A DNA stretch of 64,000 nt from Patiria pectinifera. Its lineage: Eukaryota > Echinodermata > Asteroidea > Valvatida > Asterinidae. Numbering within the stretch: position 1 is the first letter of the stretch; each line of letters begins with the position of its first letter. Position numbers and translations under genes: made by a program. Below, in pieces: positions 12,730 to 63,877 of the stretch. Under the pieces are notes generated by a model that saw only the letters and a list, made by a program, of their open reading frames with translations, ran no database searches and was not told the origin of the DNA. Location of the stretch: contig CM057149.1 in assembly GCA_029964075.1 (NCBI GenBank), positions 7,388,465-7,452,464 of the forward strand, given 5' to 3'.

Positions 12730-12795
12730 TCAGATTTCGAACTCGAACTCGGACTCGGACTCGGACTCGGACTCGGACTCGTACTCGAATTCGGA
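12672..12795. repeat. GACTCG hexanucleotide array at the 3' end of gene A
   Basis: Tandem and degenerate GACTCG units overlap the stop codon of gene A. Read on the minus strand they encode the Glu-Ser/Glu-Phe tail that replaces the normal LRR C-terminus found in genes B and C. Confidence 0.85.
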
Positions 12796-15700
12796 CTCGC
12801 ATGTGGTGGACTCGACTTCAACACTACTAAGTGATGCAGCGATGAGTTGAATGTCTGCATCACTCAACCAACACTCTTTTAAGACCAGCTTTTTCAGTTG
12901 TTTCAGGCACTTTAGGTGAGACCATGCATCCGAGCGAGTCAGGGGTACATTTCCAGACAGATCCAGTTCGACCAGATTTGACATTTCACAAGGCCATGCA
13001 GCGATGACTTTGATGTCTGCAGTTCTCATTAAAGACCACCGCAAATCCACCTTTTGCAGTTGTTTTGGGCACTTTATGTGAGACCTTGCACTCGAACCAG
13101 CCAAGGACTCATTTCCAGACAGATCCAGTTCAAACAGAGTTGGTATGACACTTAGTGATGCAGTGATAAGTTCAATGTCTGAATAACTCAATGAGCACCG
13201 CCTTAACACCAGCTTTTTCAGTTGTTTCAGGCACTTTAGGTGAGACCATGCACCCGAGCGAGCCAAGGACTCATTTCCAGACAGATCCAGTTCAAACAGA
13301 GTTGGTATGACACTTAGTGATGCAGTGATAAGTTCAATGTCTGAATAACTCAATGAGCACCGCCTTAACACCAGCTTTTTCAGTTGTTTCAGGCACTTTA
13401 GGTGAGACCATGCACCCGAGCGAGCCAGGGATTTATTTCTAGACAGATCCAGTTCAACCAGAGTTGGTATGCCACTAAGTGATGCAGCGATTAGTTCGAT
13501 ATCTGCATTTCTCAATGAGCACCGCTGTAAGGTCAGTTTTGTCAATTGTTTCAGGCACTTTAGGTGAGACCATGTTCTTGAACCAGCCAGGGATACATTT
13601 ATGGACAGATCCAGTTCAACCAGAGTTTGTATGTCACTAAATGATGCAGCGATGAGTTCAATGTCTGCATCACTCAACAAACACTCTTTTAAGACCAGCT
13701 TTTTCAGTTGTTTCAGGCACTTTAGGTGAGGCCATGCACTTGTACCGGCCAGGGATAAATTTCTAGACAGATCCAGTTCAACCAGAGTTGGTATGTCACT
13801 AAGTGATGCAGTAATGGGTTTAATGTCTGCATCACTCACCCAACACTCTTTTAAGACCAGCTTTTTCAGTTGTTTCAGGCACTTTAGGTGAGACCATGCA
13901 CTTGAACCAGCCAGGGAATTTCTAGACAGATCCAGTTCAACCAGAGTTGGTATGTCACAAAGTGATTCAGCAATGTGTTTAATATCTTCATCTATTAATG
14001 AGCTGCTGCTTATTCGCAATCGCATCAGATGTTTCAGTACCTGCAATGCAGGTGACCATTCAGCTGCTTTGCCACTAAGGTTTGCAATATATTCAATTGT
14101 CAAATCAACCAAGTCAGGTCTTCTTCCTATTGCTCTTACAATATTTGCCACATCAGGACCTCGAAATTTACTTGACGGGAGATACAGTCGTATGCCAGAA
14201 CGGATCTCACACGGAACTACTTCAAAGCGTGAACCATCACATTCATTAATTAGACGGCAATGCCCAAGATTTGGCAAACAGCCAGCTACAGCAGCAATAC
14301 TTATCACATCCTCCACTTCTAAGCCACAGTCATATAGTGTCAGTATCTTCAGGTGTGTCAGCTGCTTTAACTTGGACAATGACACACCTGAGCCAGCCAG
14401 GGGATTCTTAGACACATGCAAATGAACCAGATTGGTACTCAGTGATGCAGCAATGTGTTCAATGTCTTTGCCTCTCAATGAGCATTTTTCAAAGTCTATT
14501 CGTTCCAGACATTTCAGTTCTTGTAATGCAGGTGACCACTCAGCTGCTGTACCGCGAAGTCCTTGAACACGATCAATGACCACTTCGACTATGTCACTCC
14601 TGCTACCCATGGCCTTCAGAATATCTGCTACGTCAGAAGCAGTGAATAACTGACCCAAGAGGTTTATCTTCAAACCTGTATCACATGTTGAGACTCGAAA
14701 CACATCATCAACAGTACAGTGGATAAGCTTTGGCATACAGCCAACTAGAGAAGCGATCCGTATCACATCCTCTATTTTTAAACAGCAGTTTTGTAAGTGT
14801 AATTGCTTCCAATAGTTCAGTTCTGGTAATGCAGGCGACCACTCAGCTCCTGTACCACCAAATCTTTGATGAACACGATCAATGACCACTTCGTCTATGT
14901 TACTCTTGCTATAATGTTTAGACAGGTGAAGTTCTGTCAGTGTAGGTGTATCACAAAGAGATTCAGTAATTAGCTTAACATCAGCGCTTGTCAGTGCACA
15001 ACGTTCAAAAATCAACTTGTCTAGTTGCTTTAGTTCCTTGAACTGAGAAGTCCATAATGCTGCTGTGCCTTGCAGTCCCTCAATTGCTGTCATACACAAT
15101 GTAACCGTGTCTGCTCTGTTAGCCAGTGCCTTCAAGATGCGTTTCATTTCTGTACCATTTAATGACATCCCGTGTAGGTCCAGCATAATGCCATATCCCA
15201 ATGGGTGTATCCATAAATGTCCCGTCTCACTCAGTTCCATCAAGTTTGGCATATCACTTAGTGTTAGGGCAATGTGCTTTATATCATCAACCGTCAGACA
15301 GCCGTCCAGCTTCAAAATCCGCAGATGTTTTTTGTTTAACAGTGGCATCCACGAATGCACAAAACCCCTTAAAGCTTCATTGTGCGAAAGGTCTAATTCA
15401 GTCAACTTGTCAGCCTTGCTCAGTGATGATGCAATTTCTGTCATACTTTCAGTGGTTAAAGAGCATCCCCGCAATCTGACAACAGAAATATTAGGCATGT
15501 TGTAAATGGCGAATGCCAAATCTTCAGTACACCTTTCCAAGCTATAGAAATCGAAAGTTAATTCCTTAACTTTGTCAAGGTAAATATTACCGGTGTACTT
15601 CGCCTGGTTACCAACATGTTTGAGAAACCACACAAAGGAGTTCACATCACGGCTGTTGATATAGTCTGTGTTTATCGCTTCAGTTATGACTGAGTGTACG

Positions 15701-17264
15701 AATACCTCTGATAATATATTTTCTGCCTGACTCTCAAAGTAACAATTCAAGGCCATGTTTAATGCTGTATTTTCAGTCCCCTGTGTACAGGTAAGACTAC
15801 TCTCATCATTGATCCTCTTCTGCAACATCTGCAAGACTTTAATAGTACATGCTTCATTGTCACCACAACAAAAGCGCAGCAGATAGTGAAACTTCTCCAT
15901 GTCATCGAGTTTATAAAGATTCGTTTGAAATTCGTCAGCGTCTGATTTCTGTAAGCTTTGCAGGTAAACAGCAGCACAGAATTCTTGAATTGTTTTGTGG
16001 ATAAACTGTATGTTGTTATGAGTGTCCAACCCTATTAAGACCCTCTGGCTTGTAAGGATACCGGCCTTCAGAGCTTTATCAAGCACACTCTTCTCAAACT
16101 CTCTTTCTTGAAATGAAAGCCGCTGCAATGGAGACACTAGGCCATGGAAAGCAACCTTTCCGACTGCAACAAGGATCTCTGGTATTTCCTCCTCCGGTAT
16201 ACATTTTCTCTTGAATATGTATTTATGAGCCTCCCAATATAAGCGTGATATTGTGTTTGGTAGTGTGGATTTTTGTTTCCATAATAAACACATTAAAAGG
16301 AGCAGCATTGGGCTATGGGCTAAATCAAAAAGGACACCTGATGATTTAATTGTTTGGAAAAGAGTGTCGGCATCATGGGGGCTTTTAGAAAAAAACTTTC
16401 CCAAGTAATTCCTAACATCTTGCTCATAGAACCCCAAAACCTTCACATGGGTGAAAGGTTTTCCAACCAGTGATCTGCCGACCAATGTGCCAAAATGAGA
16501 GGTACGGGTTGTTATAACCACATCAATGTCTGCTCCAACTTTTCGGTTTAGAATTTGCAGGATGGATCCGAATGATTTATTATCAAGTTTGGTGGTCATC
16601 AACTCATCAAAGCCATCCAGAAGAATTAACACCTTTTCAGGATTCTTGAAAATAAAGCATTTCAGGTGGTTTTTGTCGATAACGTTAGGATCGATGAGCT
16701 GCTCATATAGAGAGTCAATCAGATCTGCAGTTTGTTCCAGTGCACTCATTCTCAGAACAAAAACAAGCTTATATTTTTCCAGAGGGCCAGATAAGCCACT
16801 TGCCCAGTCGTAAGCAATTTTCCCAATCAGGGTTGTTTTCCCCAGACCTGCCAATCCCTTAAAAATTATACGATTGATAACAACACCTCCTTCGTTTTGA
16901 ACAAGGAAAGCCTCCTGATATGTCATCTCCTTACCCATTTCATTATTACCCCCCGGTCCTGATTGATCACCACCTTCATCATTATCATCATCAGCATCCC
17001 CGTCCTCATTATCATCATTACTAACTAATTGTAAATTTGTGTATATTTTCATGATATGCCTCATGTCATCATCAACCCATGGAATCATTTGCACGTAACT
17101 GCCCTGGGTCTTGTACACCTTCTTGAGTGCCTCTTCACACAGATCTGCTGCAGCGTCTGCTGCTGCATCGATGGATGGACTGGTATCTTGATTTGCTTGT
17201 ACTGATGGGCCGCTTACCTCAGGTTGGATGTATTGTGCAGGGTGTTGATTATTTCCCATTGCTC
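12730..17264 (-). CDS. Gene A last exon: NACHT and LRR
   Basis: This is a 1,511-codon exon. After a linker shared with genes B and C (DLCEEALKKVYKT, then QMIPWVDD) comes an acidic insert of Asp/Glu/Gly absent from B and C, coded by a TCA/ATC-type repeat at 16,960-17,035. NACHT motifs seen are Walker A GLAGLGKTTLIGK (near 16,850), Walker B VLILLDGFDELM (near 16,610) and sensor 1 VVITTRTSHFG (near 16,510). From about 15,500 down to 12,830 there are many LRRs in alternating pairs, with the pattern LxxLxLxxCSLxxxDIxxIAASL then PTLVELDLSxN. The acceptor is a pyrimidine tract ending CAACAG, and the border is phase 1. Confidence 0.9.
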
Positions 17265-20200
17265 CTGTTGAAAAAGTGAATTCACGCACAACTTTGTGGA
17301 ATAGTTTTTAAAATAATTTCCCAAAATATGTCAAACAGAAATATGGACCGGGGTTTACAAGATAATGACATTTTATCAAAATGGGGATCACGTTTATCTG
17401 TAAACCACACACCAGCCCCTTTTGTCATACCAGCCCCTTGTTCCCCCTCCCCTCAATTTGTCAAGTCCACATCTGATTATGCCGTATAATATGAGCTATT
17501 AAAATTGACTGTAACAATGATCTGTTTTATTTTATTTAGTTATATCCTTTGTGTTTTCATGAAATTCTCTTGTCAATTTAAAACGAGAATTTACATATTT
17601 CGGATTTTGTTGTTGAGGGAGGGGGTTCCTTGCCGATATATGATCTTCGCATGTCGACCGAGTGCATGTCCGTTTTAAAGTTGTTTTACCCCCATATGAA
17701 GGTAGGAGTGTGGAAGGTAAGAGGCCGTGTGTTCATACACTTGTGCTTTTCAGATGACTTGCATTTATATCGTACATTATCTACAGTATCCAATCGGTGT
17801 GTCGTAAAAGTAAACCCAACGGTCGAAAGTAGTACTGCTGTTTGTGGTAAATTTGATGAAGGGATGGCATTTTGAATTTCAATCTTTAAATACACAAGTA
17901 CTGAAACTATTTTACAGAGTTGTAACCAAGTCATTTTTCCCAAGTCAAGTCAAGTTGAATCAAGTCCCAAGTCAAATTTTAGCTACTCAAGTCAAGTCTC
18001 AAGTCAATAATTGTTTCTCAAAGTCAAGTCAAGTCAAGTCTCAAGTCCATTTTTCACAAGTCAAGTCCCTAGTCGATTTTTGTCAAGTCGAATCTTGAGT
18101 CGTTTTTTTTTAAATATTAGATGCACATACTACGTGGTAATTCGATGACTTTAGGGAGAAAATTTCATCCAAAGACAATCACCCCTAAAAGTAGTCACCG
18201 TGGCCCATTTCAAAGAAAAGAAAGAAAGCCTGCGCTCCATTGCAGAAAAAAAGCAATTCTGGGATCCCATTTCATGATCTAAATCTCACGGAAATTCGAG
18301 CTCGCAGTCTTGTGCACGACATTAACCAATATTGCTTACAGAGCCTCAAGTTTATGGCCCATAAAATGCTCTAATAACAACCATTTTGGGCGTTTAAAAT
18401 TGTGATTTTTCCCGCGTAAGCAATATCGGGCCTGTTTACAGGTCTGCACCCATAGAGGAACAAATTACAAGACTGTAATAACTATAAATAGCGCCCTCAT
18501 ATTGTGTCCACCATACTGCAATCCAATGGCCTACAGTTGTACCAAAGAAAATTAGTGACTTTCTAGCTGTCGGAACTGGAAATTCGTCATTGTTAATACC
18601 ACCTTCGCCCTGCCCCTTCACCCTAAAAAAATACATTTACACTTGATCTCAGATATCAAACTATTTTCTAGTATCGAACAAGATTATATTTACCTGGTTT
18701 AAATATGATATTAACTCTACTTGAACCAACAATGACAGGGTTCTGGTTACCACTGATTTTGCCGATGCTTCCTAAGCTGGCTCTACCTCTTCGTATTTAT
18801 TTCATCATCCTTAATTTTCTACTTAATTTTCGAGTGGTAATCCGATGACTTTAGGAAGGAAATTTTATCCAAAGATTATGACTCCAAAAGTAGTCACCGC
18901 ACGTGGCCCATCGCCATTAAAAAAAAACGAAGCCTGCGCTCCATTGCAGAAAAAAGCAATTCTAGGACCCCTTTCCATGATCGGAATTTTACAGAAATTC
19001 GAGCTCGCAGTCTTGTGCACGGCTTTAACCGATATAGCTTACAGAGCTTCAAGTTTATGGCCCATAAAATGCTCTAATAACAAACATTTAGGGCATTCGA
19101 AATTGTGATTTTGCCCGTGTAAGCAATTATGGGCCTTTTTACCAGTCTGCACCCATAGAGAAAGAAATTACAAGACTTAAATCACTATAAATAGCGCCCT
19201 CATATTGTGTCCACCATATACTGCCATGCAATGGCCTACAGTTGTACCAAAGAAAATGTGTGACTATCTAGCTTTCGGAACTGGAAATTCTTCCAAGTTA
19301 ATACCACCCTCGCCCTGCCCCTTCACCCTAAAAATACATTAAAACTTGATTTCAGATATCAAACTACTTTATTGTATCGAACAAGATTATATTTACCTGG
19401 TCCCTCCAAAGGCAAGTTGTAATTGATATTAACTCCACTTGAACCAACAATAATAGGGTTTTGGCTGCCGCTGATTGTGTGGATGCTTCCTATGTTGGCT
19501 CCACCTCCTTGTGGGTAATCTACAATCAAAAGCAAGTATTAAAGTATTTTTCAATTCAATTCAATAATGGTTTATCAAAACATGTTTAAAACTGAATTGT
19601 ACATGTGAACTTCATATCTGATAAAAAAACAACCAACATAATATAATTACAAACAGAATATATTAAACTACAATGTACCTGTACATTAAAACAATAAATA
19701 CTTAAAAATATGTGGGCAATCGAACAGAATCCGAACTTGAGTTATGTATGTTAAATAAACATGTCATATGGCTTTTCTGCAAATTTGTATAAGTTTATAC
19801 TTATTTTGTCCATATGCAGTCATCTGAATGATGATTTTAATGTAAGAACAACTTTTCCTGACCTATTTGCTGCTTTTGGTTGCTCCACATTTTACATGTA
19901 TACCAAAACAATCCAAGATAATGTCGATATGACGTAAGCTTCAATTTCATGTAAAACATATACGTAACTATGTATTTACATAGCCAATACATTTTTAAGA
20001 ACATTTCTAGAGCATTTTCTAAACATTTATATTATGAACATTTTAGATAATAATAATAATAATAATAGTGAACATTTACACCACGCCATATCTGTCAATA
20101 TGACACTCCTGACGTCACATGACAAATAATGACGTCATGATGTCACTTGCTTAAGACCAACCAAAGCCTAGGGTCTTGGTCTGTGCCTATTTATTATTTC

Positions 20201-23200
20201 ACGACTAATTATTCCACTGTGCCTACTTATTATTCCACGACTAATTTCTTTATATATAGGAATTCAAAATATACACCTTTATGCTTAGATGACGACTCGT
20301 GACAAATGATGACGTCATAATAACACACAATCTAGTATTGCCTGCAACAAGTCTCTGTATATGTTCATATCAAGTTCCAATCCAATTGGACTTACTTTCT
20401 TTAGATAAAAAATCTTAAAATATATACCTTTAAGATGACGTCATGTGACCATTGATGACATCATTATGGCTTATCTAGGACCAAGTTAACTTTAGGGTCT
20501 TTGCGTATGACTAATTTGCTGTACTTTGAGAGATGGAGAATAATTACTTGGTACGCACCAATTGATGACAGTTAAAAGTCAGTTTGATGATGGACATATT
20601 CACATTGGTTTGTGCAAGGAATGTCCATGTTGCTGCTTGGATGTTGAACATAGGATATGTGCATATATGTCTGTACAACGAATGTCCATATTTGTTTTAA
20701 ACTCCGGGAGGAGGCGTGATTGAGATGCCCCCTACCGTGAATCGCGCCGACGGATCCCATGAGAAGCTCTGCTAGGTTACGGTCTGGTGATACACGGACA
20801 TTGGAAATGCCCTTACCTTTGTATGGCGAATGTTATATATCTGTATAAGATTGTACCTTTTGATAGGCTGGCCAAAGAGGCAGTGACTGATGCTAATACA
20901 GTTGTACTTCCTGTGTCAACTTGCTGTCTATCGCTTGCAAGTGTCTTTTCCTGTGAGTCTTCAGCTTCACTGCCAGCCATGTCTTGTCCGCCTCTCTTCC
21001 TTATTGTACCAGCAGCTGAGATACAAAGACAAAAACTTGAAACAGATCACTTGAAATAGTGGTTTGTCAAAGCTGAAAGATAATATTGTTGAAGAAGCAA
21101 ATTGCCATGTGTGAATCAAATCAAATGACAATATGTTAACGATAGTATTACCGGTCTCTGACGGGGTACTAGCGGCAGTACCGACTACTGCCGATAACAC
21201 CTGTTGCCTTGTCTCACCCAGGCTCTTTGTATTGGTTTCAGCTTCAGATGGTGATTTGTTGGCAGCTGTTCTTTTCCCCTTTTGTATCCTCCCAGAATTG
21301 TTGTCTTTCCTTGGCTGTTCTAATTTCTGAGTTTGTGTTTCCCCTGATGAGTGGGGAGCGGGTTCCTTAACTGCTGCTGAGGAGAGGGAAGTATTCTCTG
21401 AGCGATCTGAGTTTCCTTCCCGGCCACGGCTTGCCCTTGTTTTGGTAGCTTTTCTTTTTGCATTTTGAAGCCTTTCAGAATTGTTGTCTTTCTTTGGCTG
21501 TTCTAGTTTCTTTTCTTCTTTTTCCCCTGATGGGTTGCCAGCAGGTGCCTCAACTGCTGAGGAGATGGAAGAACCCGCTGAGTTCTTTTCACCAACAGAG
21601 CTTGTCGTTTTCTTGGTAGCTTCTCTTTTTTCCTTTTGTCTCCTCCCTGAATCGTTGTCTTTTCTTGGCTGTTCTAGTTTCTGTGTTTGTGTTTCCCCTG
21701 ATGGGTGACCAGCGGGTGCCTTAACTGCTGAGGAGATGGAAGAATCCTCCGAGTTATCTTCAATGCCAAGGCTTGTCCTTGTTTTGGTAGCTTTTTTTCC
21801 CCCCTTATGCCTCCTCCCTGAATCGTCTTTCCTTGGCTGTTCTGGTTTCTGTTCTTGTGTTTCCCCCGATGGTTGAACAGCGGATGCCTTAACTGCTGAC
21901 GTGATGGAAGAATCTTCTGAGTGATCAGAATGTTCTTGGCCCCCACTGTTTGTCCCTGTTTTGGTAGCTTTCCCTTTTTCATTTTGTCTCCTCTCTGAAT
22001 CATTGTCTTTCCTTGGCTGTTCCAGTTTTTGTTCTAGTGATTCTACTGACGGTTGCCCAGCGGGTGAATTTACTGCTGAGCATATGGAAAAGTCCTCAGA
22101 GCTATCCACAGTTACTTCACCGATACGGCTTGTCCTTCTCTTGGTAGCTTTTCTTTTTTCCTTTTGTTTCCTCGCTGAATCATTGTCTTTCCTTGGCTGT
22201 TCTAGGCTCTGTTCATGTTCCCCTGATGGGTGACAAGCACGTGCCTTAACTTTTGAGGAGATGGCAGAATCCTCCGGGGTATCCACATTTTCTTCACCGC
22301 CAAGGTGTTTCCCTGTCATAGGAGCTTTTCGTTTTCCTTTTTGTCTTCTTCTGGAATTGTCTTTCGTTGGCTGTTCTAGTTTCTGTTCTGGTGTTTCCCC
22401 TGATGGCTTGCCAGCAGTTGCCTTATCTGCTAAGGAGATGGAAGGGTCCTCCGAGCTACCCACATCTTCTTTACCGCCAAGGTGTGTCCCTGTCTTAGAA
22501 GCTTTTCTTTTTCCCTTTTGTCTTCTCCTGGAAATGTCTTTACTTGTCTGTTCTAGTTTCTGTTCTGGTGTTTCCCCTGATGGGATGCCAGCGGTTGCCT
22601 TAACTGCTGAGGAGATGGAAGGGTCCTCCGAGTTATCCACATTTTCCTCACCGACAAGGTGTTTCCCTGTTTTAGGAGCTTTTCTTTCTCCCTTTTGTCT
22701 TCTCCTGGAATTGTCTTTCGTTGGCTGTTCTGGTTTCTGTTCTTGTGTTGCCCCTGATGGGTGGGCAGTGGGTGCGTGAAGTGCTGAGGAGATGGAAGAG
22801 TCCTTCGAGTTAACCACGTTTTCTTCACCGCCACGGCTTTTCCTTCTCTTGGTGGCTTTTCTTTTTCCCTTTTGCCTCCTCGCTGAATCATTGTCAGTCC
22901 TTTCTGGTGAATCTCCTGAAGATACGGTTATAAACACATGTATTAAAATTGGCTCGCAAGAATCAGACAGTCAGATAGTTTCTCAAAGGATGACAACGCG
23001 TCACAAGTTCCTGAGTATATCATCATTACCTTGTCTACTAATAGGAGGTTGGAGAATCATTTTATTATCTTCTCTTGGATTATTCAGTAAACTAGCCGAC
23101 AATACAAGGTGAACTCTGACTAAACCACAAACTAGCCGAATTTTTTTGTCTACATAGGTAACTCATTACTGCTACAGAGATTACTCTTTACGCCAACAGA

Positions 23201-40900: not shown

Positions 40901-43900
40901 TTTAAATGAACGTCTTGATGTATTATAAGCGCGCCAGGTTGCATAAGATGTACATCTGTGTAATAAATATCATCCCTAGTGCCATGTGGTGTCCTGCCTC
41001 CCCCCCCCCCTTGAATTTCCACGACCAGGCAATTAGGATTTTGGTCATCCCCTATCCCCTACTCGCCGGCAAGAATTTAAAATACCGCGTCAATCACCTT
41101 GCATCAGCTCTGTTGACAATCTCTCTTGGTGAAGTTGTTCAGCTTGAGGTTTTTCTTGCACAGATGATATCATCTTTTCCTTAATAGAGCTCTGCTTCTG
41201 GTCTCCTGTTTCAACTTCTGACTGTATTTCTGGATCAGGCCCGGAAAGATCATCATCGCGCTCCTGCCTCATTCTCTGACGCTCAGGCGACGTACTTTGT
41301 TGGGTGTTCTCTTTGCTGACTCCTGCCACTCTCTGTTTATCTTGATGAGGATTGTGTGCATGATGACTGGCTTGCTTAACTCCCTGGTTCTCACGGGTTG
41401 CTATCCCTGGTTGAGAACTCTGCTCATGTCCGAGTTGCTCAGGCGATGCTCTTCCTACTTGTTGAAAGACGTTTTCTCTGATTCCTGACTCCGGCTGAGG
41501 TCTTTCAGTCTCCTTAATCAGCTCGTGCCCTACAGATTGTTTCTCGGGTAGGCTTACAGTTATACCATGTTGACAGCTCTGTTCCACATATTGTTGTTCT
41601 TGCTTTTTGTCTTGCTGAAGTCTGTCTGCACCATCATCCCGCTTGCACCTTAGTACTGTTTCCTCAAGTGATGCCATCGTCTCTGCTTGTGAAATGTGAT
41701 GCTCAGGTGACATAAGTATAGGTTGGTGGATACTCTGTTCATTGACCCCTGCCACTTTCTGTGTATCTTGACGAGGAATGTTTGCATGATGACTTGCTTG
41801 CTTCTGCTCAACTCTTTTGTTCTCACATATTGCTATCACTTGATGAGAACTCTGCTCATGTCCGAGTTGCACAGGTGATGCTTCTCTTTCTTGATGGAAG
41901 CACTGATCTCCGATCCCCGACTCCGGGCGAGGTCTTTCCGTCTCATTTATCCGCTCATGGTTTACGGCTTGTTTCTCAGGTACTATTACACCGTGTTGAC
42001 AGCTCTGTTCCACAGCTTCTTGTTCTTGCTTTTTGTCTTGCACAAGTCCGTCTGGACCATAATCCTGTTTACATCTCAGTCTTGGATGCTCAGGTGATGT
42101 CATTGTTTGTAGTTGTAAACTTCTAGTCCTCTCTGTCTGATGTATGTCTAACTCACGAACATGATCCTGTCCCTGTCTTTGGTGTTCTTTTTGTGACATT
42201 TCATAATGTCTGTCCGCTTTAAGTCTGTCTGGACCAAAATCTTCCTGTCCCACTTCGGGTGTTTCGGATGATAATATGTCTTGGCGATTGTATTTTCCCT
42301 CAGTTTTCTGATCTTTTGGTCTCTGTTGTTCAAGTGCAGTTCCCTTTCCTCGTTGCAGGTTCAATCCCATGACACCTGCTAAGTGCTGATCCTCTGGCTG
42401 GAGTCTGTCAAGATCGAGGATCTGAGATTCTCCCCCATCCTTGGCTGGATTCTTCTCATGATTTTTCCGTCTTCTCCTCCTCCTCCTCCTCCTCCCTGTA
42501 TGTAAAGAATAAACAAAATTGATTTACACAATGAGATGAATTTGTTTTTGTTCAATGAGCAATGTATTTGACTCCACTAATCGACAAGGGCCATTATAGA
42601 ATTAATAACCATGAATAAATATGAATTAGACTGTACTTCTCGATCGGCTCACTGATGAGGCAGTGACTGATGTTGAGACGGGGGAGCTTCCTGTGTCAAT
42701 TGCAACTGGCTGTCTGCCGCTTGCAACAGTCTTTTTCTTTGATTCTTCAGCTTCACTGCCAGCCGTTTCTTGCCCGTCTCTCTTTCTTATTGTTCCAGCA
42801 ACTGAGGTATGGAAATAAAAACCTGAAACAGATCACTTGAAATAGTGCTTTGTTAGAGATAAATAAAAGATAATTTAGCTGACGCAGCAAATTGCCATTT
42901 GTGTAATTACTGAAAATGTGTTAAAGGAAAGAGTGTTACCGGTCTCTGACGAGGTGCTAGTAGCAGTACCAACTACTGCCGATGAGCTGGAATCCCCTAG
43001 ATCACGTAAGATCTGTTGATCTGTATCACAAAGGCTCTCCTTATTGGTTTCTGCTCCAGATGGTGATTTACTGGCAGCTTTTCTTTTTCTCTTAGGTCTT
43101 CTGTCAGAATTGCTGTCTTTCCATGGCTGTTCTAATTTCTGTTCTTGTGTTTCCCCTGAAAGGTGACCAGTGGGTGCCTTAACTGCTGAGGAGGTGGAAA
43201 AATCCTCCGAGTTGTCCATGTTTTCTTTGCTTTCTGCTCCAGATGGTGATTTATTGGCAGCTTTTCTTTTTCTCTTTCGTCTTCTTCCAGAATTGTCTTT
43301 CCGTGGCTGTTCTAGTTTCTGTTCTTGTGTTTCCCCTGATAGGTGACCAGTGGGTGCCTTAACTGCTGAGGAGGTGGAAAAATCCTCCGAGTTGTCCATG
43401 TTTTCTTTGCTTTCTGCTCCAGATGGTGATTTATTGGCAGCTTTTCTTTTTCTCTTTCGTCTTCTTCCAGAATTGACTTTCCGTGGCTGTTCTAGTTTCT
43501 GTTTTTTTGTTTCCCTTGATAGGTGGTCAGCGGGTGCCTTAACTGCTGACGAGGTGGAAGAATCCTCCGAGTTGTCTGCATTTTCTTCACCGCCACGGTT
43601 TGTTCTTGTCTCATCAGTAGCTTTTCTCTTTCTTTTCTGTATCCTTCCAGGATCATTGTCTTTCCTCATCAGCTGGCTAATTTTCCGTTTTTGAGTTCCC
43701 CCCGAAGGGTGACCAGTAGGTGCCTTAACTGCTACGGAGATGAGAGATTCCTCAGAGTTTTCTTCACCGCCAGGGCTTGTTCCTGCCTTAGCTTTAGTTT
43801 TCCCCTTTTGCATCCTCCTGGAATCGTTGTCTTTCCTTGGCTGTTCCATTTTTTGTTCTCGAGTTTCCTCTGATGGGTGACCAGCACGTGCCTTAATAGC

Positions 43901-46900
43901 AGTTGAGGTGGAAGAATCCTCAGAGTTACCCGCGCTTTCTTCTCCGCCAAGGCTTGTACTTCTGTTTGCAGCCTTTCTTTTTCTCTTTCGTCTTCTGCCC
44001 GAATTGTTGTCTTTCCTTGGTTGTTTTACTTTATGTACTTGAATTTCCCCTGACGGGTTATCAGTGGGGGCATTAACTGCTGAGCAGATGAAAGATTCCT
44101 CGGAGTTATCCAGGTTTTTTTCACCGCGAAGGCTTGTCCCTGTCTTAGCTTTACTTTTCCCGCTTTGTATCCTACTGGATTTGTCGTCTTTCCTTGGATG
44201 TTCTAGTTTCTGTTTTTTCGTATCCACTGATGGGTGGCCAGCACGTGCCTTAAGAGAAGCCGAGGTGGAAGAATCCTCAGAGTTACCCGCGCTTTGTTCT
44301 CCGCAGAGGCTCGTCTTTCTTTTAGTAGCTTTTCTTTTCCCCTTTTGTATCCTTCTAGGAGCGTCTTGCCTTGGCTGCTCTAGTTTCTGTTTTGTTTCCC
44401 CTGATGGGTGGCCAGCGGATGCCTTAACTGCAGAGGTGTTGTTACACGTGTCTTCGCCGCCACAGCTGGCTCTACTAGCCTTTCTATTTCCCTTTTGTTT
44501 CCTCCTTGAATCTTTGATAGTTTTTTCTCTTGAATTCCCTGATATGATGATAAACACAAGTATATCAAATTTATCAATAAGTAGAACGTCACAAAATGAT
44601 TCTATTATCGTGGCCTTGTCGACCAACAGGAGGTTGAAAAATCATTTCGTCATTATTCCGTTAGTATCTTCACATCTGGAGGAAAATGGAGGTAAATTTT
44701 GACTAAACCATCAAACTACCTTTACATTTACAGATGTAACTCTTTTTAGGGCTAAATTGTACCTGCTGACTTCTGTTCAACAACTCCACGAATGTCTTGA
44801 AGCACTATACTCATAGCTCTAATTAAACTGTTAACACTCGACAAACAACCTGTTCATTAGCTCAACCAATGATCCCAGCTTGGGGTATCAAGGTTACCCT
44901 TTTTAAATCTCCACATATGCAATAAGACACTATACTCATAACTCTAAACACTTGAGAAACAACCTGTTCATTAGCTCAACCCAGGAACTTTGAAACTTAT
45001 GATTATTAACACATAATCCATGAAGGTAATCTCATACTCTGTGTGAATGCAAATGCAATCTTGAACAATAACTTGTGACATCATAAATAGTTTACAAACT
45101 GAAAATCCGCAAATCTTGAACAAATTTCAAATGTTGGAAATTACGCTGTGTGAGCATTTCGTTTCGTGATCCAACTACATTTGCATCCGCACTTGGTTAA
45201 ATGATCTCTGTGTATAAATTTTACCTGCTGATTTCTTTTTATCATCTGCTCCGCCCATCAACCCAGACACTAAGCGTAGCTCTATGTTGGTGTCTTGCTG
45301 AATTCCAAGTTCTTTGAGCGACATTCTACCCTTGAGCTATCATAGGGGGTTAAAAATGAAGCAAAACTCTGTCAAAATAACAGCTCTGTAATGATAAAAC
45401 GATGACAAAAGTGAATATGTAGGATGTTGTGATTGAAAATAAGGAAATTGGAGATATTTATTTGAAACAGATCTTACATAACTTTACCATACCTCATGAT
45501 TTTTTCTTGTATATAGACGTTGTTTCTTTGGTTCAATCCCCATTTTTTCTTGTAGTAATCCTTTCAATGCTGAGATAGTAGTGGACGGATGCAGTTGCAG
45601 ACATACGGGTGGTCTCAAGGAGCTAATCACAAACAGCTGGATTTGGGATTCTTGTTTCTCTTCACCAGATGGTTTCTTGTCAGCAATTGTTTGTTTCCTT
45701 GTCTTCTTTCTCCCTAGATGAAAAACAAGAAGCACATCGTTTTCTTTGACCCATTTGCACGATTTGGCTTCAAATGAAAACTTAATGAATAAAATATTCA
45801 ATTGACCATCAAAGTTCACAAAGTTAACCATCTGTTGAGGACATAACTGAAGATCAGTATTTATGTGAATCAGAAGTGCTAATTATTGAGGTGACAGTCC
45901 CTAAACAGAATATCAATTGATATTTCGTGAATGGGACACTTGCAATCACAAAAGGAATGGTTAAACATAATGACAATCAAATGTTTTGATTGATCACTTA
46001 CTTTTTGGTTGTACCTGTCAATGAGTTCTAACAAAATAGTTTTAACACATGCATTATCATAGTCTTCATGGGAAAAAATCATTTAAAAATAGGATCGATT
46101 GCTGTATCAGCTGCTACATCAAATTTAAACTGCTGTAAGACACCTGCACAAGTAAGCAGGAGGTCGTGGGTTCGAGTCCCACGAGTGAGCTTGTGAATTT
46201 TGGGGTTTTTTTAGAGGGGGGGGGGGTAGCTTTTGGACAGTACTAAGTTTACAATACTTGTGAAAATATATCAGTGAATGGCAAATTCCATTTTTGGAAC
46301 AGAGAGTTTACCTATTGATTGGTTGTTTTTCTTAGCAGTGGTCTTGGCTGATGAGGAGACGGTGGAATTCCTTGAATTGACCAACATATCTTCAGCTTCA
46401 TTACCTTTGCTTGTTTTATCGATGGCTTCTTCTTTGGATGAGGATTTCTTGGCAACATTTTGGCCTTTCCTTCTCTTGCCTGAATTGTTCTTAGTCTTGC
46501 CTCTTCTGTGTACTTTCCCTGCAGGTAAACAAACATATAAAAGTGCTGTAGCTTTATTCTTCAGCTAGCGAAAAGGCATACCTGAATTCAGATCGTCTTT
46601 GATTTTGACCAAAAGCAAAACGTAAAAATGTACATCAAAATACCGAGATTTACCAGGTTTTCTTGTCAAGGTGTAAGACTCCCCAAAGGCATTCGAAGGA
46701 TCTCGCTTTTTGTCATCTGAGGAAGTTTGTTTTTCAGCCTTATGAAATAAGAGTTTTTGTCTCGCCTTCCCGTGTCGTCTTCTTCTCGTCCTCTTTCTCC
46801 CTATAAAAAAGTAATGTTTATCAGCTACCGGGTTTACAATTCAAGAATTGACATGCAAAGATGTTTTGCCATTGTGCCAGCCTTACGTCCATGTAGCTAT

Positions 46901-49900
46901 CTGACTGACTCAGACTGACTGACTCTGACTTATGAGCCAGGCATAACTAAACCATAACGCCAATGAAAGGGCTACAGCTGGCCCATTGAAAATTCTTGGA
47001 AGGGACTCTCGCAATCGTAAAATGAGTGGTTTAAACATAATGACAACCATACAGTTTGATTGATCATTTCCCATTTGGATGTATACATCAGATTTGAACT
47101 GATGTAAGGCACCTGCACTAGAAAGCAGGAGGTCATTGGTTCGAGTCCCACCTGAGTGAGATGGTGAATACTTATTGTTGCAAGTTCTCAAGCAGCATAT
47201 AGTATGCCAGTGAATAGCAAAACCCATTATTAAATAGAGAATTTACCTTTTGATTGGTTGTTTCTCTTAGCAGTGGTCTTGGTTGATGAGGAGGCGGTGG
47301 AATCCCTTGAGTTGACCAACTTATCTTCAGCTTGATCATCTTTGCTTGTTTTATCGATGGCTTCTTCTTCGGATGAGGATTTCATGGCAACTTTTTTGCC
47401 TTTTCTTGTCTTTCCTGATTTTTTCTTGGTCTTGCCTCTACTTCGTATTTTCCCTGTTGGTAAACACAAATATAAAAGGACTGCAGCTGTTGCGTCTTCT
47501 TAAGCAAACAAAAAGGCATACCTTCATTCACAACAGCTTTGATTGTGATCCCTAAAAAGTAAGAAAGTACATCAAAGTACTGAGATTTTACCAGGTTTTC
47601 CTGCTGAGGTGTCAGACTTCCCCAAGTCATTCAAGTGATCTTGCTTTTCATCATCTGAGGTAGTTTGTCTTTCAGCTTTATCTAATAACGGGCTTCGTCT
47701 CGCTTTCCCTTGTCGTCGTCTTTTCGTCCTCTTTCTCCCTGTAAGAAAAAAAGTAATATTTATCAGTAACCAAATTAACAAGTCCATTTTTATTGGTCCC
47801 AGTGCGCCAGCCTAGAGTCCTCTTAAAATGTGTACCTATCTGACTGACTGACATATCGACACTTGTGAGCTGGCCCATTGTGTAGACCATATGCATAAAA
47901 AGACTTCCGGTACATAGCTATTATAAATCAATTGAATATAACTGTTTTCGTCTTGTACCTGCTTTAATTGGCTTGTCTTTTTTTCTTCAAAATAATGCTC
48001 AAAGAGTGCAGACAAAGGAGTACACGCCTGAAAATTAAGCACAGATTTCAGTGTATAATCAAAATCCTAGCTAGGTTTTACCAAGTTTTGCTGCTGAAGT
48101 TGAAGAATTCCCAGAGTCATTGGAATGTTGTTGCTCTGCGACAGCTGAGGGTGTTGGTCTATTGGTGTCATCTTTAGATGAGGAGGTGACTTGAATCATG
48201 CGAGGAGAAAAAATGCTCAGGATAACACGGATTGTGATCAGTGGGAGGCATAGAATCCACAGAAACAGGTTGAGTTTTCCAAAATGTGTAGCTGAGCCAC
48301 CAGCAATTGAAGAGTCATCTTGATCTAGGGTGGTTGATATTTCTCCTTCTGCACAGGATGGTTCCTTTTCGCCATGTTTTTGTCTTCGTCGTCTTCTTCT
48401 CTTCTTTCTCCCTAAAAAAAAATGCAAGTACCCTTGATCAATTTAAAATACTTTTTTTTTTAAATGTTTTCGTCACCGAAGTGCGAGAATTGCAAGTATT
48501 TGGTGTTCTAGGATTCGAGTCCAGGACTCACACTTGGGTCCATCTCGAGTTGCAATTTCAGTGACTATGACTTGACTTGAGTCATATTCGCAAAAGATTT
48601 GGACTTGGACTTGATTATCATTACTTGGATTTACTCAATTGAACTGGAATTCTTATGTGAATTGAAAAACTCGGACTGAAACCACTTGAGTCAAAAATCA
48701 GATTTTAATTCGAGTCAAATGTCTTTATTACAATACTGGTACCAAATGAGTAGATTTGTACCTGTTGATTGGTCGCCTGTGGTTGTAGGGGAATCCCCCG
48801 ACTCTTCGGTTGACCTCACTTGAAATTTCTCATCAGAGTTACTTTGCATAATCATTTCCATTGCAGATGTAGATTTCTTCCCAGATTTCTTTTTCCTTCT
48901 TTTTGTCTTCTTTCTCCCTAGAATATCACAAGGTCATGAGGCAGCAAGTTAATCAGCGCTACTAAATCATGCAAAACATGTAAGTTTATGTTTGTGAAGA
49001 TATCGTTGGCTCCCTTGTACACTTTGTACGACAGAAAGGATCCTTTTACTGTTGAAGATGTATTAACTGCCCCCTCCGGAAGATGAGGCCCCTAAATTCC
49101 CCCTTAAAAAATTTGTTACACCACTCTGACCCCGACCCCTGTCGGCAAAGCCTGTACTTCCCTCCCTTCACCTCTATATCTAATCTCCTACCTGCTGTTT
49201 TCTGTTTGTCATCTCCTCCCATCAAGCCAGACACTAGACGCAACTCTATGTTGGTGTCTTGCTCAATCCCATAATTCGCTAGGGAGAGGTCATCACGGAG
49301 CTGTGGACAACAAATAAAAACTTGCTTAAGGCTTGAATTAATATATGTATCACTTTCAAATTTCTATATTGCTTTTTCAACAGAAGGGAGACGTTAAATT
49401 TAAAATTTGGTATTGCATCTTTATTAGTGTCTAGACCCCACAAGACAATCACAAGACCTCCAGTCTCAATTCAAGTCACAAACTATTTGAACAAATTGCA
49501 ACAAAGGCATTTCTTTGCCATTGTTCGTGCCGTGTTAATTGTTGCTGGTCTTGTGCTTGGTCTACAATTGGTTTTGTGTCTGGTCTTGTGAAGGTCTCGA
49601 CTACAACACTGATCTTCACAGATGAAGATCCAATATTCCATGAACTTGCATGTAACACGAACATGAATATCATCATTATTTACCTCATGGTTTTTCCTTG
49701 TAAACAGATGTTGTTTCTCTGGTTCAATCCCCACTTTGTCTTGTAGTAATCCTTTCAATGCTGAGACAGTAGTGGACGGATGTAGTTGCAGACAGACTGG
49801 TGATGTCAAAGAACTATTCACAAACAGCTGAATCTGTCGTTTCTGGCACGGTTTGGAACTATAGGGGAAGAAATATAAAATATGGCAAGTTTGAAAAAAA

Positions 49901-51639
49901 TTGCCTCTAAGGAAGTCCTTGCTAAGGATGGAATATCAGGTCACTCAAGTTGTTTTTAATATTGAAAAAAAAAATAGTTCTGAAATCATGGAATAATTAT
50001 TGCTTTAAGGATTAATCCACTTACACATGTACTACATTATATCACACTGTATTTATTTCCTGAAGAATCAATAAAACCATAGAGGACTTGGGCAGTTACA
50101 GGCGGTACAGGGATATGGGTTAAGTATAGAGTACCGTAAATGTATCAATAAAATCTGAGACAATTTTAAGCAACAGAATGAAAAGGGCAGGACCATGACT
50201 TGTGTAATTCGAAAAAGTTTGAAGAGGACTATCACATAAATTTTATGAAGCTGCTTCACAAACTTTTAAGATCTTGCATTGTTTTGATGCTCTTAAAAAA
50301 CGGTCATCAAAATGAAAGTTAATTTTCACTTAATACATTAGCAAACTTCGTTTTTCAACTTTTAAATATTTAATGGTTCTATCAAAAATTTAAATAATGA
50401 AATACAATTGTAACCTTAATTAATTTTAATCAATCCAAATCAAAGTTTTTTGCACCATTCAGCAAGCAAACATGTGTTTAAAATGAACACAATTCACAAT
50501 CATGTTATAAAAAAATGGACAAAATTAACACATTTTACAAGCATGGTTTAAAAAAAAAAACACTTTTAAATGTCCACTTTACCTGCATTGTTGATCTTCT
50601 GTGGAAGTTCTTGAAACAACAGACTTGGGAGGAATGGATTCTTGGCAGGACCTGGCAGCTAACAGTACTGACTGGAACGCCTCTTTCTTGGACTTGCGGA
50701 CTTTCTTCTTTCTCGTGACCATCTTGGCCAGCGAGTGATCATTGATGTGCCGAGCAGCTCTCTTGGCATCCTCCAAGTCAGAAAGGCTCCTCAAAGGTTG
50801 CAAACAAAAATCTCCCTGGATATTGATAAAGTTATGACAAATTTGAAATTGAAGAATACTCATAATTGTTACATGATTTGTCAAATAAAACAGGAGGGCT
50901 TTAACAAAATGCATCGGAGTAATACACTACCACATCTAATTTTTGAGAAGGGGTATGATAGCCATGGAACAACGAATATCAAATATCTACCCTCCTCCCT
51001 CCCCTCCCCTCCCTCGCCACGCCCCACCCCAACCCCAACCCCAATCCACGAACAAGTTATGTCCATACAATTGCTGGCAATACAATCGTCTACACAAATA
51101 ATTCCATGTGGTTATTTGAAAGGAAAAAAATTAAACAAATGTTTCTATAAATGAGTCAAATAGAACTACATTTTAACTGTAGCCTTGACAAAGTAAATTC
51201 AACAGACGTTAGTGAAAAGTGGTGGCTCAGTTGAGCTATTTCAAGCGGGGAAGTATGAAGAAAAGCATTTCTGTTCGATCTTTAAATGCCATATAGAGCA
51301 CGACAAAGACCGATAGTTCTTTGTTTCTTAGAAAATATCAACAATGCTTACCATTTTTCTGTCTTTACGACCAGATTTGTCACCCGATCCTGTAAATTGA
51401 AGGAAGCGTCGCAGTTTTAGCAGCTGTGGGAATTCCCCTTTTGTATGCGCGCGCAGTGTCGCGTGACGAAGGCGTCACTGATTATTACCACGTAGACAGT
51501 ACAAAGGGCGCATTAGCAAGGTTAATAATTATTCAAGATCATGATCGTCTATGAAACGTTATTTACCGGACAAACCCGAATGATAGGTAAAGACTTCAAG
51601 TCTCTTTTTACAGTCAAAATACATCACATTTACAATCAT
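33141..51639 (-). CDS. NLR gene B: ubiquitin-like x2, repeat array, Q/E-rich exon, RHIM-like exon, NACHT, LRR
   Basis: Eighteen exons join in frame: 51567-51639, 51352-51389, 50583-50815, 49684-49858, 49192-49300, 48762-48917, 48082-48411, 47592-47738, 47247-47453, 46654-46800, 46312-46518, 45493-45713, 45225-45336, 42940-44538, 42637-42801, 41098-42495, 38508-38723 and 33141-37954. The product is about 3,448 aa. Landmarks are ubiquitin-like 1 (about 124-202), hydrophobic segment (307-328), ubiquitin-like 2 (631-710), basic array (719-1251), Gln/Glu-rich part (1307-1772), RHIM-like exon (1773-1844) and NACHT P-loop (about 1965), then LRR to the end. The start is the same conserved ATG exon as in gene A, with an upstream in-frame stop. 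All motifs expected for an active NACHT are present, so this is the best candidate for a working copy. Confidence 0.78.
37955..38507. other. Gene B last intron
   Basis: An AT-rich intron of about 550 bases. It is shorter than the same intron in A and C, which share extra DNA missing here. No element is seen. Confidence 0.6.
38508..38723 (-). CDS. Gene B RHIM/amyloid-like exon
   Basis: This 216-base phase 1-1 exon encodes AVRALVPSALQPAMQHPSTP, a Ser/Thr stretch, then AGSCNPVFFGTTTGNVFNYE and FKQYVTVHHQGVTS. The NPVFFGTTTGNVFNYEF core corresponds to NPIIVGSSGVNINYN of gene A. It lies directly before NACHT. An amyloid-forming role is a hypothesis from composition and position. Confidence 0.75.
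38724..41097. other. Gene B intron
   Basis: This 2.4 kb intron has a GACTCG/CTCGACT array at 39,250-39,385. The rest is AT-rich DNA in which I recognise nothing; the open frame at 40,157-40,339 and its neighbours have no splice support. Confidence 0.55.
41098..42495 (-). CDS. Gene B Gln/Glu/His-rich exon (only in B)
   Basis: This 1,398-base phase 1-1 exon begins with a run of ten Arg, then KNHEKNPAKDGGESQ. It contains two copies of a roughly 130-residue unit with DKKQEQ, VEQSCQHG, ETERPxPESGI, LGHEQSS and QASHHA, then a shorter degenerate end. It is strongly polar and probably coiled or disordered. No counterpart is seen in gene A. Arg-run coding by (GGA)n suggests birth from a simple repeat. 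Confidence 0.75.
42637..42801 (-). CDS. Gene B Ser/Thr-rich linker exon
   Basis: This 165-base phase 1-1 exon begins VAGTIRKRDGQETAGSEAEE. It matches the exon at 20857-21015 of gene A. Its donor reads GAA/GTACAG, one G fewer than in A, but the phase is unchanged. Confidence 0.75.
42940..44538 (-). CDS. Gene B basic/acidic repeat-array exon
   Basis: This 1,599-base phase 1-1 exon holds about eight units of the gene A type (KRKRKAANKSPSGAE, DNSEDFSTSSAVKAPTGHLS, GETQEQKLEQPRKD). Two neighbouring units at about 43,140-43,480 are almost identical in DNA (about 171 bases each), which points to recent slippage or unequal exchange. No folded domain is seen. Confidence 0.85.
45225..45713 (-). CDS. 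Gene B ubiquitin-like domain 2 (two exons)
   Basis: Exons 45493-45713 and 45225-45336 match the gene A cassette: IQLFVISSLRPPVCLQLHPS, TTISALKGLLQEKMGIEPKK, RLYTRKNHE, then LKGRMSLKELGIQQDTNIEL and RLVSGLMGG. The phase-0 intron inside and phase 1 at both outer ends are conserved. Confidence 0.85.
46100..46190 (+). mobile_element. tRNA-derived SINE fragment (copy of 24,541)
   Basis: The B-box part AGGTCGTGGGTTCGAGTCCC is present. It occupies the same intron as in gene A. Confidence 0.7.
46312..47738 (-). CDS. Gene B low-complexity exons 8-11 (four basic/acidic modules)
   Basis: Phase 1-1 exons lie at 47592-47738, 47247-47453, 46654-46800 and 46312-46518, with lengths 147, 207, 147 and 207. 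The alternating length pattern shows a duplicated pair more clearly than in gene A. They read GRKRTKRRRQGKARRSPL, GKIRSRGKTKKKSGKTRKGK, GRKRTRRRRHGKARQ and GKVHRRGKTKNNSGKRRKGQ. Confidence 0.8.
47040..47165 (+). mobile_element. tRNA-derived SINE (copy of 25,440)
   Basis: Same insertion as in gene A, with B box GGTTCGAGTCC. It predates the A/B duplication. Confidence 0.7.
48082..48411 (-). CDS. Gene B exon with a hydrophobic, membrane-like segment
   Basis: This exon has the same length and phase as 26504-26833. The hydrophobic run LNLFLWILCLPLITIRVILS is kept while the flanking low-complexity part has changed more, which is mild evidence for function. Confidence 0.75.
48762..48917 (-). CDS. 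Gene B basic/acidic linker exon after ubiquitin-like domain 1
   Basis: A 156-base phase 1-1 exon begins GRKKTKRRKKKSGKKSTSA. It corresponds to 27205-27360. Confidence 0.8.
49192..49858 (-). CDS. Gene B ubiquitin-like domain 1 (two exons)
   Basis: Exons 49684-49858 and 49192-49300 correspond to 28091-28265 and 27637-27745 of gene A, with IQLFVNSSLTSPVCLQLHPS and the end RLVSGLMGG intact. Substitutions between A and B are few. Confidence 0.85.
50583..51639 (-). CDS. Gene B N-terminal exons 1-3
   Basis: Exons 51567-51639, 51352-51389 and 50583-50815 match gene A. Exon 1 begins MIVNVMYFDCKKRLEVFTYH. Exon 3 is one codon shorter than in A (PPKSVV against PPIKSVV). An open frame and in-phase splice sites in both copies support the start. 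Confidence 0.65.
51428..51437. promoter_or_regulatory. Candidate NF-kappaB site in intron 1 of gene B
   Basis: GGGAATTCCC is conserved with gene A (29985-29994). The adjacent E-box of gene A is not conserved here. Confidence 0.4.
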
Positions 51640-63673: not shown

Positions 63674-63877
63674 CCGAAGTAGCTCCCTGATTAACTGTCA
63701 CATTGAAATGGAAACTGTTCCCAGTAGTTGGACCGACAAAGGTCTGGTTACAGCTGCCAGCGACACCCAAAGCTTCAAGATTACGGTGAATGGAATCCGA
63801 TGAAAGATGAGTTCTCAGAGTAGAGGGATGCTGCATTGCTGGCTGGACCGCTGAGGGTACTAGAGCCCGAAGTGCTG
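63674..63877 (-). CDS. Gene C RHIM/amyloid-like exon
   Basis: This 204-base phase 1-1 exon reads ALRALVPSAVQPAMQHPSTL, a Ser/His stretch, then AGSCNQTFVGPTTGNSFHFN and VTVNQGATS. The AGSCN start and the TTGN core are shared with gene B, while the positions around the xxxG core vary. Confidence 0.7.

Follow-up and report, generated by a model that had tools for sequence, protein, structure and literature searches.

We describe two genes of the sea star Patiria pectinifera whose products appear to carry two ubiquitin-like domains (Ubls) in their front part and to end in NACHT and leucine-rich repeat (LRR) domains. The genes, A and B, lie in tandem on the minus strand of the window, the 64,000-nt stretch of DNA analysed here (GCA_029964075.1, CM057149.1, positions 7,388,465 to 7,452,464 of the forward strand). 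NLRs are usually classified by the output domain at their N-terminus; with NACHT and LRRs, A and B are NLRs by definition, and we consider it highly probable that the Ubl-Ubl-NACHT-LRR architecture belongs to one gene. We read the window as holding tandemly arrayed members of a single NLR subfamily of sea stars. The explanation that we prefer combines this subfamily architecture with a mechanism in which clustered Ubls would act as a multivalent signalling platform; we give the whole a probability of about one half and hold the mechanism, taken by itself, more tentatively.

Gene A (29911..12730) has 16 coding exons and encodes 2864 aa; gene B (51354..33141) has 17 and encodes 3412 aa. All introns are GT-AG, the phases are consistent, and the sole stop codon is terminal in both models. 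The preliminary description had claimed 17-18 exons without a frame break: the unbroken, phase-consistent structure stands, while the count becomes 16 and 17. Exon ends follow the phases 0, 2, 0 and then 1 onward, save for a phase 0 within Ubl2. In both genes (minus-strand coordinates, A then B), an ATG exon (29909..29911; 51352..51354) precedes an N-terminal module (exon 2; 29139..29374; 50583..50815), Ubl1 in two exons (first half 28091..28265; 49684..49858; second half 27637..27745, ending in LRLVSGLMGG in A; 49192..49300), six basic or charged exons of phase 1-1 (exons 5-10; 24735..27360; 46312..48917) and Ubl2 in two exons (exon 11, 23922..24142, where a basic lead comes before the first half; 45493..45713; exon 12, 23549..23660, ending in GLMGG in A; 45225..45336). 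Further 3' stand a long charged tandem array (exon 13; 21152..22915, with a unit of ~180 bases by self-comparison; 42940..44538), a charged linker (exon 14; 20857..21015; 42637..42801), a Gly/Asn motif (GSIHTISGSQNPIIVGSSGVNINYN in A exon 15, 19397..19519; GSCNPVFFGTTTGNVFNYEF in B exon 16, 38508..38723) and one large pre-NACHT, NACHT and LRR exon (A exon 16, 12730..17264; B exon 17, 33141..37954). An extra Gln/Glu-rich array between linker and motif (exon 15, 41098..42495) is present in B and not in A. These assignments come from the gene models, joined by Pfam for the Ubl exons and the receptor exons, and by a sequence pattern for exon 1. The end of A's LRR exon is unlike B's because of a Glu-Ser simple repeat (gagtcc; 12730-12830, minus strand).

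The start codons, for which 30,196 and 51,639 had been proposed, are placed at 29,911 (A) and 51,354 (B), each in a tiny exon of the form ATG|gt. This placement uses a 17-base string of leader, ATG and donor that has 13 exact copies in the genome, all 13 on contig C21 (reversed control, 0); each copy sits 1.7-3.5 kb 5' of a same-strand Ubl exon. Two donors of B deserve mention: that of exon 14 (AGAA|gtacag) has A at -1, and that of exon 15 (CAAG|gtgatt) looks weak.

The splicing of ubiquitin-like exons to a NACHT-LRR exon, the central claim of the preliminary description, is borne out by both phase and domain scores. The phases agree, and all four spliced Ubls pass PF00240 (36.6, 27.0, 37.0 and 29.2 bits; cut-off 25.4), whereas a scan of three first halves without splicing (exon 11 of A, exons 3 and 11 of B) gave 17.5-20.6 bits, below that cut-off, which favours the splice model. 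The top solved-structure matches of A Ubl1 by sequence are ubiquitins. In an AlphaFold2 model of residues 1-178 of P0001, a relative from P. miniata (mean pLDDT 65, 11-row alignment), the Ubl core has a pLDDT of ~86-92 and a strand-strand-helix-strand-strand order consistent with a beta-grasp fold, and the N-terminal module, which comprises ~50 conserved residues, is predicted as a long helix of uncertain quality. Each Ubl of A and B is split by a phase-0 intron, and in A the two are separated by ~420 residues. Between A and B the Ubl is under purifying selection (P 0.003). At the receptor end, NACHT (PF05729) scores 79.7 and 69.6 bits in A and B against a cut-off of 26.7 (E 2.9e-22 and 3.7e-19), and LRR_1, LRR_4, LRR_6 and LRR_8 exceed their Pfam cut-offs in the C-terminal part of both. 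Pfam, run on the larger open frames of both genes but not on exons 5-10 or several small exons, found no Death, CARD, PYD, TIR or BIR domain, and P0001, which spans the same upstream part, has no match to any of these at E <= 1.

Long proteins were searched twice, with residues 1-190 of model A as query and with the same stretch of the sea-star protein P0004. The first search matched 6 proteins among 901 candidates and the second 12 among 507, all from sea stars by name. The 12 consist of seven NACHT-LRR proteins, four SAMD9-like proteins and one Ubl-Ubl-array protein (P0001). The preliminary description had proposed looking for ubiquitin plus NACHT in relatives, and the seven NACHT-LRR proteins, from four sea stars, carry the same Ubl: P0002 and P0005 (P. 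miniata), P0003 (Acanthaster), P0009 and P0012 (Asterias rubens), and P0010 and P0011 (A. amurensis). The databases list proteins of this architecture as, for example, ‘uncharacterized protein’ and ‘NLR family CARD domain-containing protein 3-like’, and within both searches it was found in sea stars only. P0002 begins within the N-terminal module, and P0005 has neither that module nor Ubl1. At least one of P0001, P0002 and P0005 bridges 15 of the 16 junctions of B and 10 of the 15 of A (union of rows); singly they bridge 9, 7 and 3 in A and 10, 10 and 8 in B, with P0005 spanning B's final three junctions into NACHT.

The arrangement recurs across the animal's own genome. One Ubl exon used as a query yielded 150 matches (150 of 232 candidates scored), among them 64 on C21, 56 on C17 and 18 on C20. 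We compared these with 24 close NACHT loci (identity >=69%) and with a wide list of 104 (101 scored of 439 candidates, plus three in the window). Two or three same-strand Ubl exons lie within 16 kb upstream of 19 of the 24 close loci and one at two others, with no opposite-strand Ubl exon near any of the 24. On the wide list, 30 of 104 loci have such an upstream Ubl, with 46 exons on the same strand and 0 on the opposite one, versus a mean of 9.0 and a maximum of 18 after positions were shifted by 30-300 kb (1000 trials). Same-strand Ubls also occur within 16 kb downstream of 13 of the 104 loci (22 exons versus 0 opposite), as tandem arrays would yield.

More distant kin are found on C17. The divergent paralogue L013, whose first-half Ubl exons are 37-39% identical to the window's, reads through nine exons without a stop—module, Ubl, Death, linker, Ubl, Death with charged array and Gly/Asn motif, NACHT—in phases that match those of the window (2-0 and 0-1 for both Ubls, 1 into NACHT). 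Four further C17 loci (L011, L012, L014, L015) hold two Ubls, two or three Death domains and NACHT on one strand in a similar order. No N-terminal module was detected in L014, and L015 alone of the four gave a Gly motif. Against this background, the possibility that reading frames have wrongly joined two adjacent genes, one a Ubl-array and one a NACHT-LRR gene, appears very unlikely. It would suit P0001 (‘isoform X2’, 1339 aa), a Ubl-Ubl-array model that stops before NACHT; however, the Ubl precedes NACHT-LRR in seven database proteins from four species, at least one Ubl is found at 21 of the 24 close NACHT loci, and L013 keeps the phases despite its divergence.

Death domains lie 3' of Ubl exons on C17, C20, C422 and C16. 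A same-strand Death domain is located within 6 kb downstream of 21 of the 150 Ubl matches (24 versus 0 by strand; shifted control, mean 2.8, maximum 9). At L019, L020 and L023 the unit is Ubl-Death, the Death domain of L019 scoring 35.5 bits (cut-off 22.6) and L023 having a 29%-identical NACHT match farther on. On a Death list made up of the best 150 of 595 candidates, none was near the 48 window-type Ubl exons of C21 or the 24 close NACHT loci. Because the C17 kin place a Death domain after each Ubl, the Ubl of the wider family stands beside a classical output domain and does not simply replace it. Two side observations may be added: an open frame beside the C20 Ubl-Death exons (L019:6453-7517, minus strand) presumably codes a retroelement integrase, and two near-identical frames near a weak ubiquitin-family match on C21 (L016:6937-9227) presumably resemble histone H1.

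The four SAMD9-like sea-star proteins (P0004, P0006, P0007, P0008; genome loci on C5, C10 and C14) share the N-terminal module and Ubl, and their SAM matches are weak. Identity to residues 1-190 of P0004 is 61-64% among the SAMD9-like proteins and 45-55% for the NLR and array proteins. The genome has seven matches to the SAMD9-like core, six of them strong; each of the six has one same-strand Ubl 4.4-10.8 kb upstream, and the weak seventh has none. P0007 and P0008 contain Gly/Asn-rich motifs, e.g., NINIEGNKNIVKVEGDQ. Found before NLR, Death-NLR and SAMD9-like bodies, the module and Ubl thus head no fewer than three types of receptor in a single animal. A sweeping version of our proposal, which we regard as improbable, would make this one module the common front of all three STAND receptor types. 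Each would feed one switch, of ubiquitin-style signalling or of proteolysis, with the Ubl and the Gly-Gly tail at its centre and with cutting or clustering of the Ubl, and not a Death-fold filament, as the trigger.

The same spread of bodies, with and without Death, also suits a general tag better than a specific output. The Ubl might be a handle for turnover or folding, an uncleavable ubiquitin-like fusion by which the proteasome or shuttle factors receive the protein and its amount is held down until it is required, with NACHT-LRR acting through the Gly/Asn motif or, in kin, through Death. We think this rather unlikely: two or three Ubl exons are retained at 19 of the 24 close NACHT loci, and such a role does not require a Gly-Gly end.

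That end is a regular feature of the domains. G-L-M-G-G follows the final strand in all four window Ubls, and GG is present in 14 of 14 second-half exons matched by one pattern (13 sources scanned, matches in 11, the window's four included), a scan that was not blind, since a tail had to have GG or an early Leu to be retained. One Ubl that it overlooked, the first in L013, lacks a Gly-Gly end. The tail is therefore common, though not universal; the list of proteins compared was picked by that tail and so says nothing on its frequency. A deubiquitinase-like protease of host or pathogen might cut here, freeing the Ubl or tripping the receptor, and the recurring GG, together with a tail that has pLDDT < 50 in the AlphaFold2 model and runs into a linker, would fit such a site. 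Nonetheless, the bias of the pattern and of the protein list, the L013 exception and a Gly at the place of ubiquitin R72 (alignment reading) make a cut site decidedly unlikely, as does the search for a stand-alone Ubl, which found none at E <= 1e-6 among 3067 candidates of ~64-205 aa. Ribosomal protein S30 likewise had no Pfam match after the Ubl in P0001, P0003, P0004 and P0006 at E <= 1.

Another candidate for the output is the Gly/Asn motif, which upon oligomerisation might form an amyloid-like stack and template a partner, as in fungal NLRs, leaving the Ubl merely to tune. At 16 of the 104 NACHT loci its exon is found no more than 6 kb upstream (17 same-strand versus 0 opposite; position-shifted control, mean 1.6, maximum 7), and by eye the motif stands ahead of the pre-NACHT stretch in six of seven NLR proteins, with a weak form in the four Asterias ones. 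Most NACHT-adjacent motifs are on contigs, or at positions, for which no Ubl is listed, and a genome search gave 105 places at E <= 1, many of them weak. We nevertheless find a motif-driven output doubtful, given that P0002 has no motif, that A-B substitutions in the Gly exon do not differ from neutral (P 0.32), that no motif-bearing effector gene came to light and that the RHIM/PP amyloid core, G-(I,V)-Q-(I,V)-G in the passages of PMC7885112 consulted, is absent. The motif was considered as a RHIM and rejected, the core being absent by eye from six NLR proteins and from A and B. Separately, a decayed-looking second copy of A's motif exon with a poor acceptor by eye (18695-18790, minus strand) sits in an 84.7% repeat (18134-18789 / 18834-19507). 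On C22 (27-36 Mb and 15.4 Mb) there are 22 motif matches and no entries of the NACHT lists used; at one of these places (L018) the downstream open frame has no clear Pfam domain.

A pattern search located the 11-base kB-like sequence GGGGAATTCCC 74 bases 5' of the ATG in both A (29985..29995, minus strand) and B (51428..51438, minus strand); these are its two occurrences in the window, and 100 shuffles gave 0. The same sequence lies 45-75 bases 5' of the leader string in 11 of the 13 exon-1 copies (reversed control, 0), most of which are near-copies of each other, representing two promoter types. The promoter of a third copy, gene C, is 55% identical to that of A (176/320 columns) and keeps the site (L010:2959-2969). 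It also occurs in the divergent C17 gene L015 (L015:243-253), 2.2 kb 5' of the module exon; L010 and L015 are the only ones of the 23 loci fetched to contain it. By its consensus, we take GGGGAATTCCC to be an NF-kB-type site, and we infer that it would bind NF-kB.

The sequences show the domain order and the exon phases, their repetition in paralogues as well as in other sea stars, and a kB-like site conserved near the start codon; that the Ubl parts are the signalling output, as the preliminary description proposed, is possible. In the platform mechanism, infection would raise expression of the genes through NF-kB, the LRRs would sense a ligand and NACHT would oligomerise. The oligomer would gather many Ubls on flexible linkers into a multivalent platform, a ready-made substitute for a ubiquitin chain, which might then recruit ubiquitin-binding partners such as NF-kB-type adaptor or kinase complexes. 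In kin, the Ubls would act alongside Death domains.

Several observations weigh against this combined explanation. The models of A and B were rebuilt from genomic sequence alone, and none of P0001, P0002 and P0005 bridges A junctions 1, 9, 10, 14 and 15, the last two of which flank the Gly exon. For that exon of A, L015 offers a match of 69% (29 residues) where it would be expected. Because P0001 stops before NACHT, some products may lack the receptor part. Three of the 24 close NACHT loci have no listed Ubl upstream, and the Death domains of the C17 kin could transmit the signal in place of the Ubl. Together with P0001, the L013 Ubl that has no Gly-Gly end urges caution over the Ubls as the signalling output, and P0002 has no Gly/Asn motif. 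Finally, A and B are not independent witnesses, because their 5' halves were recently duplicated.

In the N-terminal, Ubl and basic exons, pooled dS between A and B is ~0.04-0.10; it rises to 0.45-0.51 for exons 13, 14 and NACHT-LRR (NACHT-LRR 0.46) and 0.89 for the short Gly exon. A 6.9-kb stretch from the LRR of B to the 5' end of A (28,937-35,801) is 96.4% identical to that from the LRR of C to the 5' end of B (50,380-57,266); the duplication ends thus fall within genes, which accounts for the age gap between their halves. Purifying selection between A and B is evident in the long array (P 9e-5), exon 14 (P 0.02) and NACHT-LRR (P 3e-16), and no clear departure from neutrality is seen in the N-terminal module (P 0.08), in the Gly exon or across the six basic exons. 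Positive selection on the basic exons was considered and set aside, as their dN/dS of 1.33 is compatible with neutrality (61 substitutions, 11 synonymous versus 13.7 expected). In a NACHT tree of 22 rows (L003 and L023 without a row), Acanthaster groups with the window genes (81/86) and Asterias stands apart, with a very short deep branch; the tree neither proves nor refutes a single origin of the Ubl-NACHT link.

Copy C (54591..61847, minus strand; Pfam and self-comparison) has a NACHT frame and an LRR frame with an insert between them; by eye, its Gly-motif exon is near 63,700, and its module and Ubl exons are outside the window (L009, L010). Its Walker A reads GLAGLRKTT (57265-61847, minus strand) against GLAGLGKTT in A and B, and its LRR is interrupted at 57265-59504 by an 883-base unit present in ~2.5 copies in tandem; a piece 94-95% like it lies at 5515-5982. 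Copy C is probably inactive as a receptor or decaying.

The charged arrays look like linkers, because arrays are also present, differently worded, between the second Death domain and NACHT of L013 and, as repeats, in the Asterias proteins. Exon 6 (26504-26833 in A and 48082-48411 in B, minus strand) contains a strongly hydrophobic stretch of 19 residues (hydropathy 2.57 and 2.44), and P0001 and P0002 have similar stretches. Being of phase 1-1, this exon could be skipped, and a membrane form and a soluble form are therefore possible.

With some two dozen loci in one animal and a ubiquitin-like N-terminus shared with SAMD9-like proteins, these genes would add a new front end to the NLRs and a new route to asking how NLRs relay alarm signals. 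They raise a testable question: can clustering of Ubls by a NACHT ring alone start NF-kB-type signalling? The preliminary description had found a tandem ubiquitin-like NLR unfamiliar, and in the open-licence literature searched we too met no description of a Ubl-NLR; the Ubl-headed sea-star NLR is thus a variant unmet in that literature, for which database models already exist.

FUBI/FAU and ISG15 are Gly-Gly-ended Ubls, FUBI-S30 having basic residues further on. Like them and ubiquitin, the domains described here score above the PF00240 cut-off, end in Gly-Gly and have basic residues beyond; they differ in standing N-terminal to a receptor, in being split by a phase-0 intron and in a tail two residues longer. 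OASL, an antiviral protein, likewise puts two Ubls on an immune protein, but there they are C-terminal and adjacent, whereas here they are N-terminal and far apart. The SAMD9-like STAND proteins share the N-terminal module, the Ubl and a like tail, and differ in having a SAMD9-type STAND body, one Ubl and no NACHT-LRR. Fungal NLRs with amyloid motifs (PP/HET-s) also place a short Gly/Asn hydrophobic motif before NACHT, according to passages of PMC7885112, whereas here the core motif was not met and no partner effector was found. Among 53 sea cucumber NLRs, 24 have Death/DED, 22 NACHT only, 6 other domains (Ig V-set is named) and 1 LRRs, and the passages of PMC8913654 that give these counts name no Ubl. 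The Death/DED NLRs of sea urchin and sea cucumber have NACHT and tandem expansion in common with the genes described here, whose C17 kin carry Death as well; what sets the sea-star genes apart is an N-terminal module and Ubl that come before Death, or stand without it.

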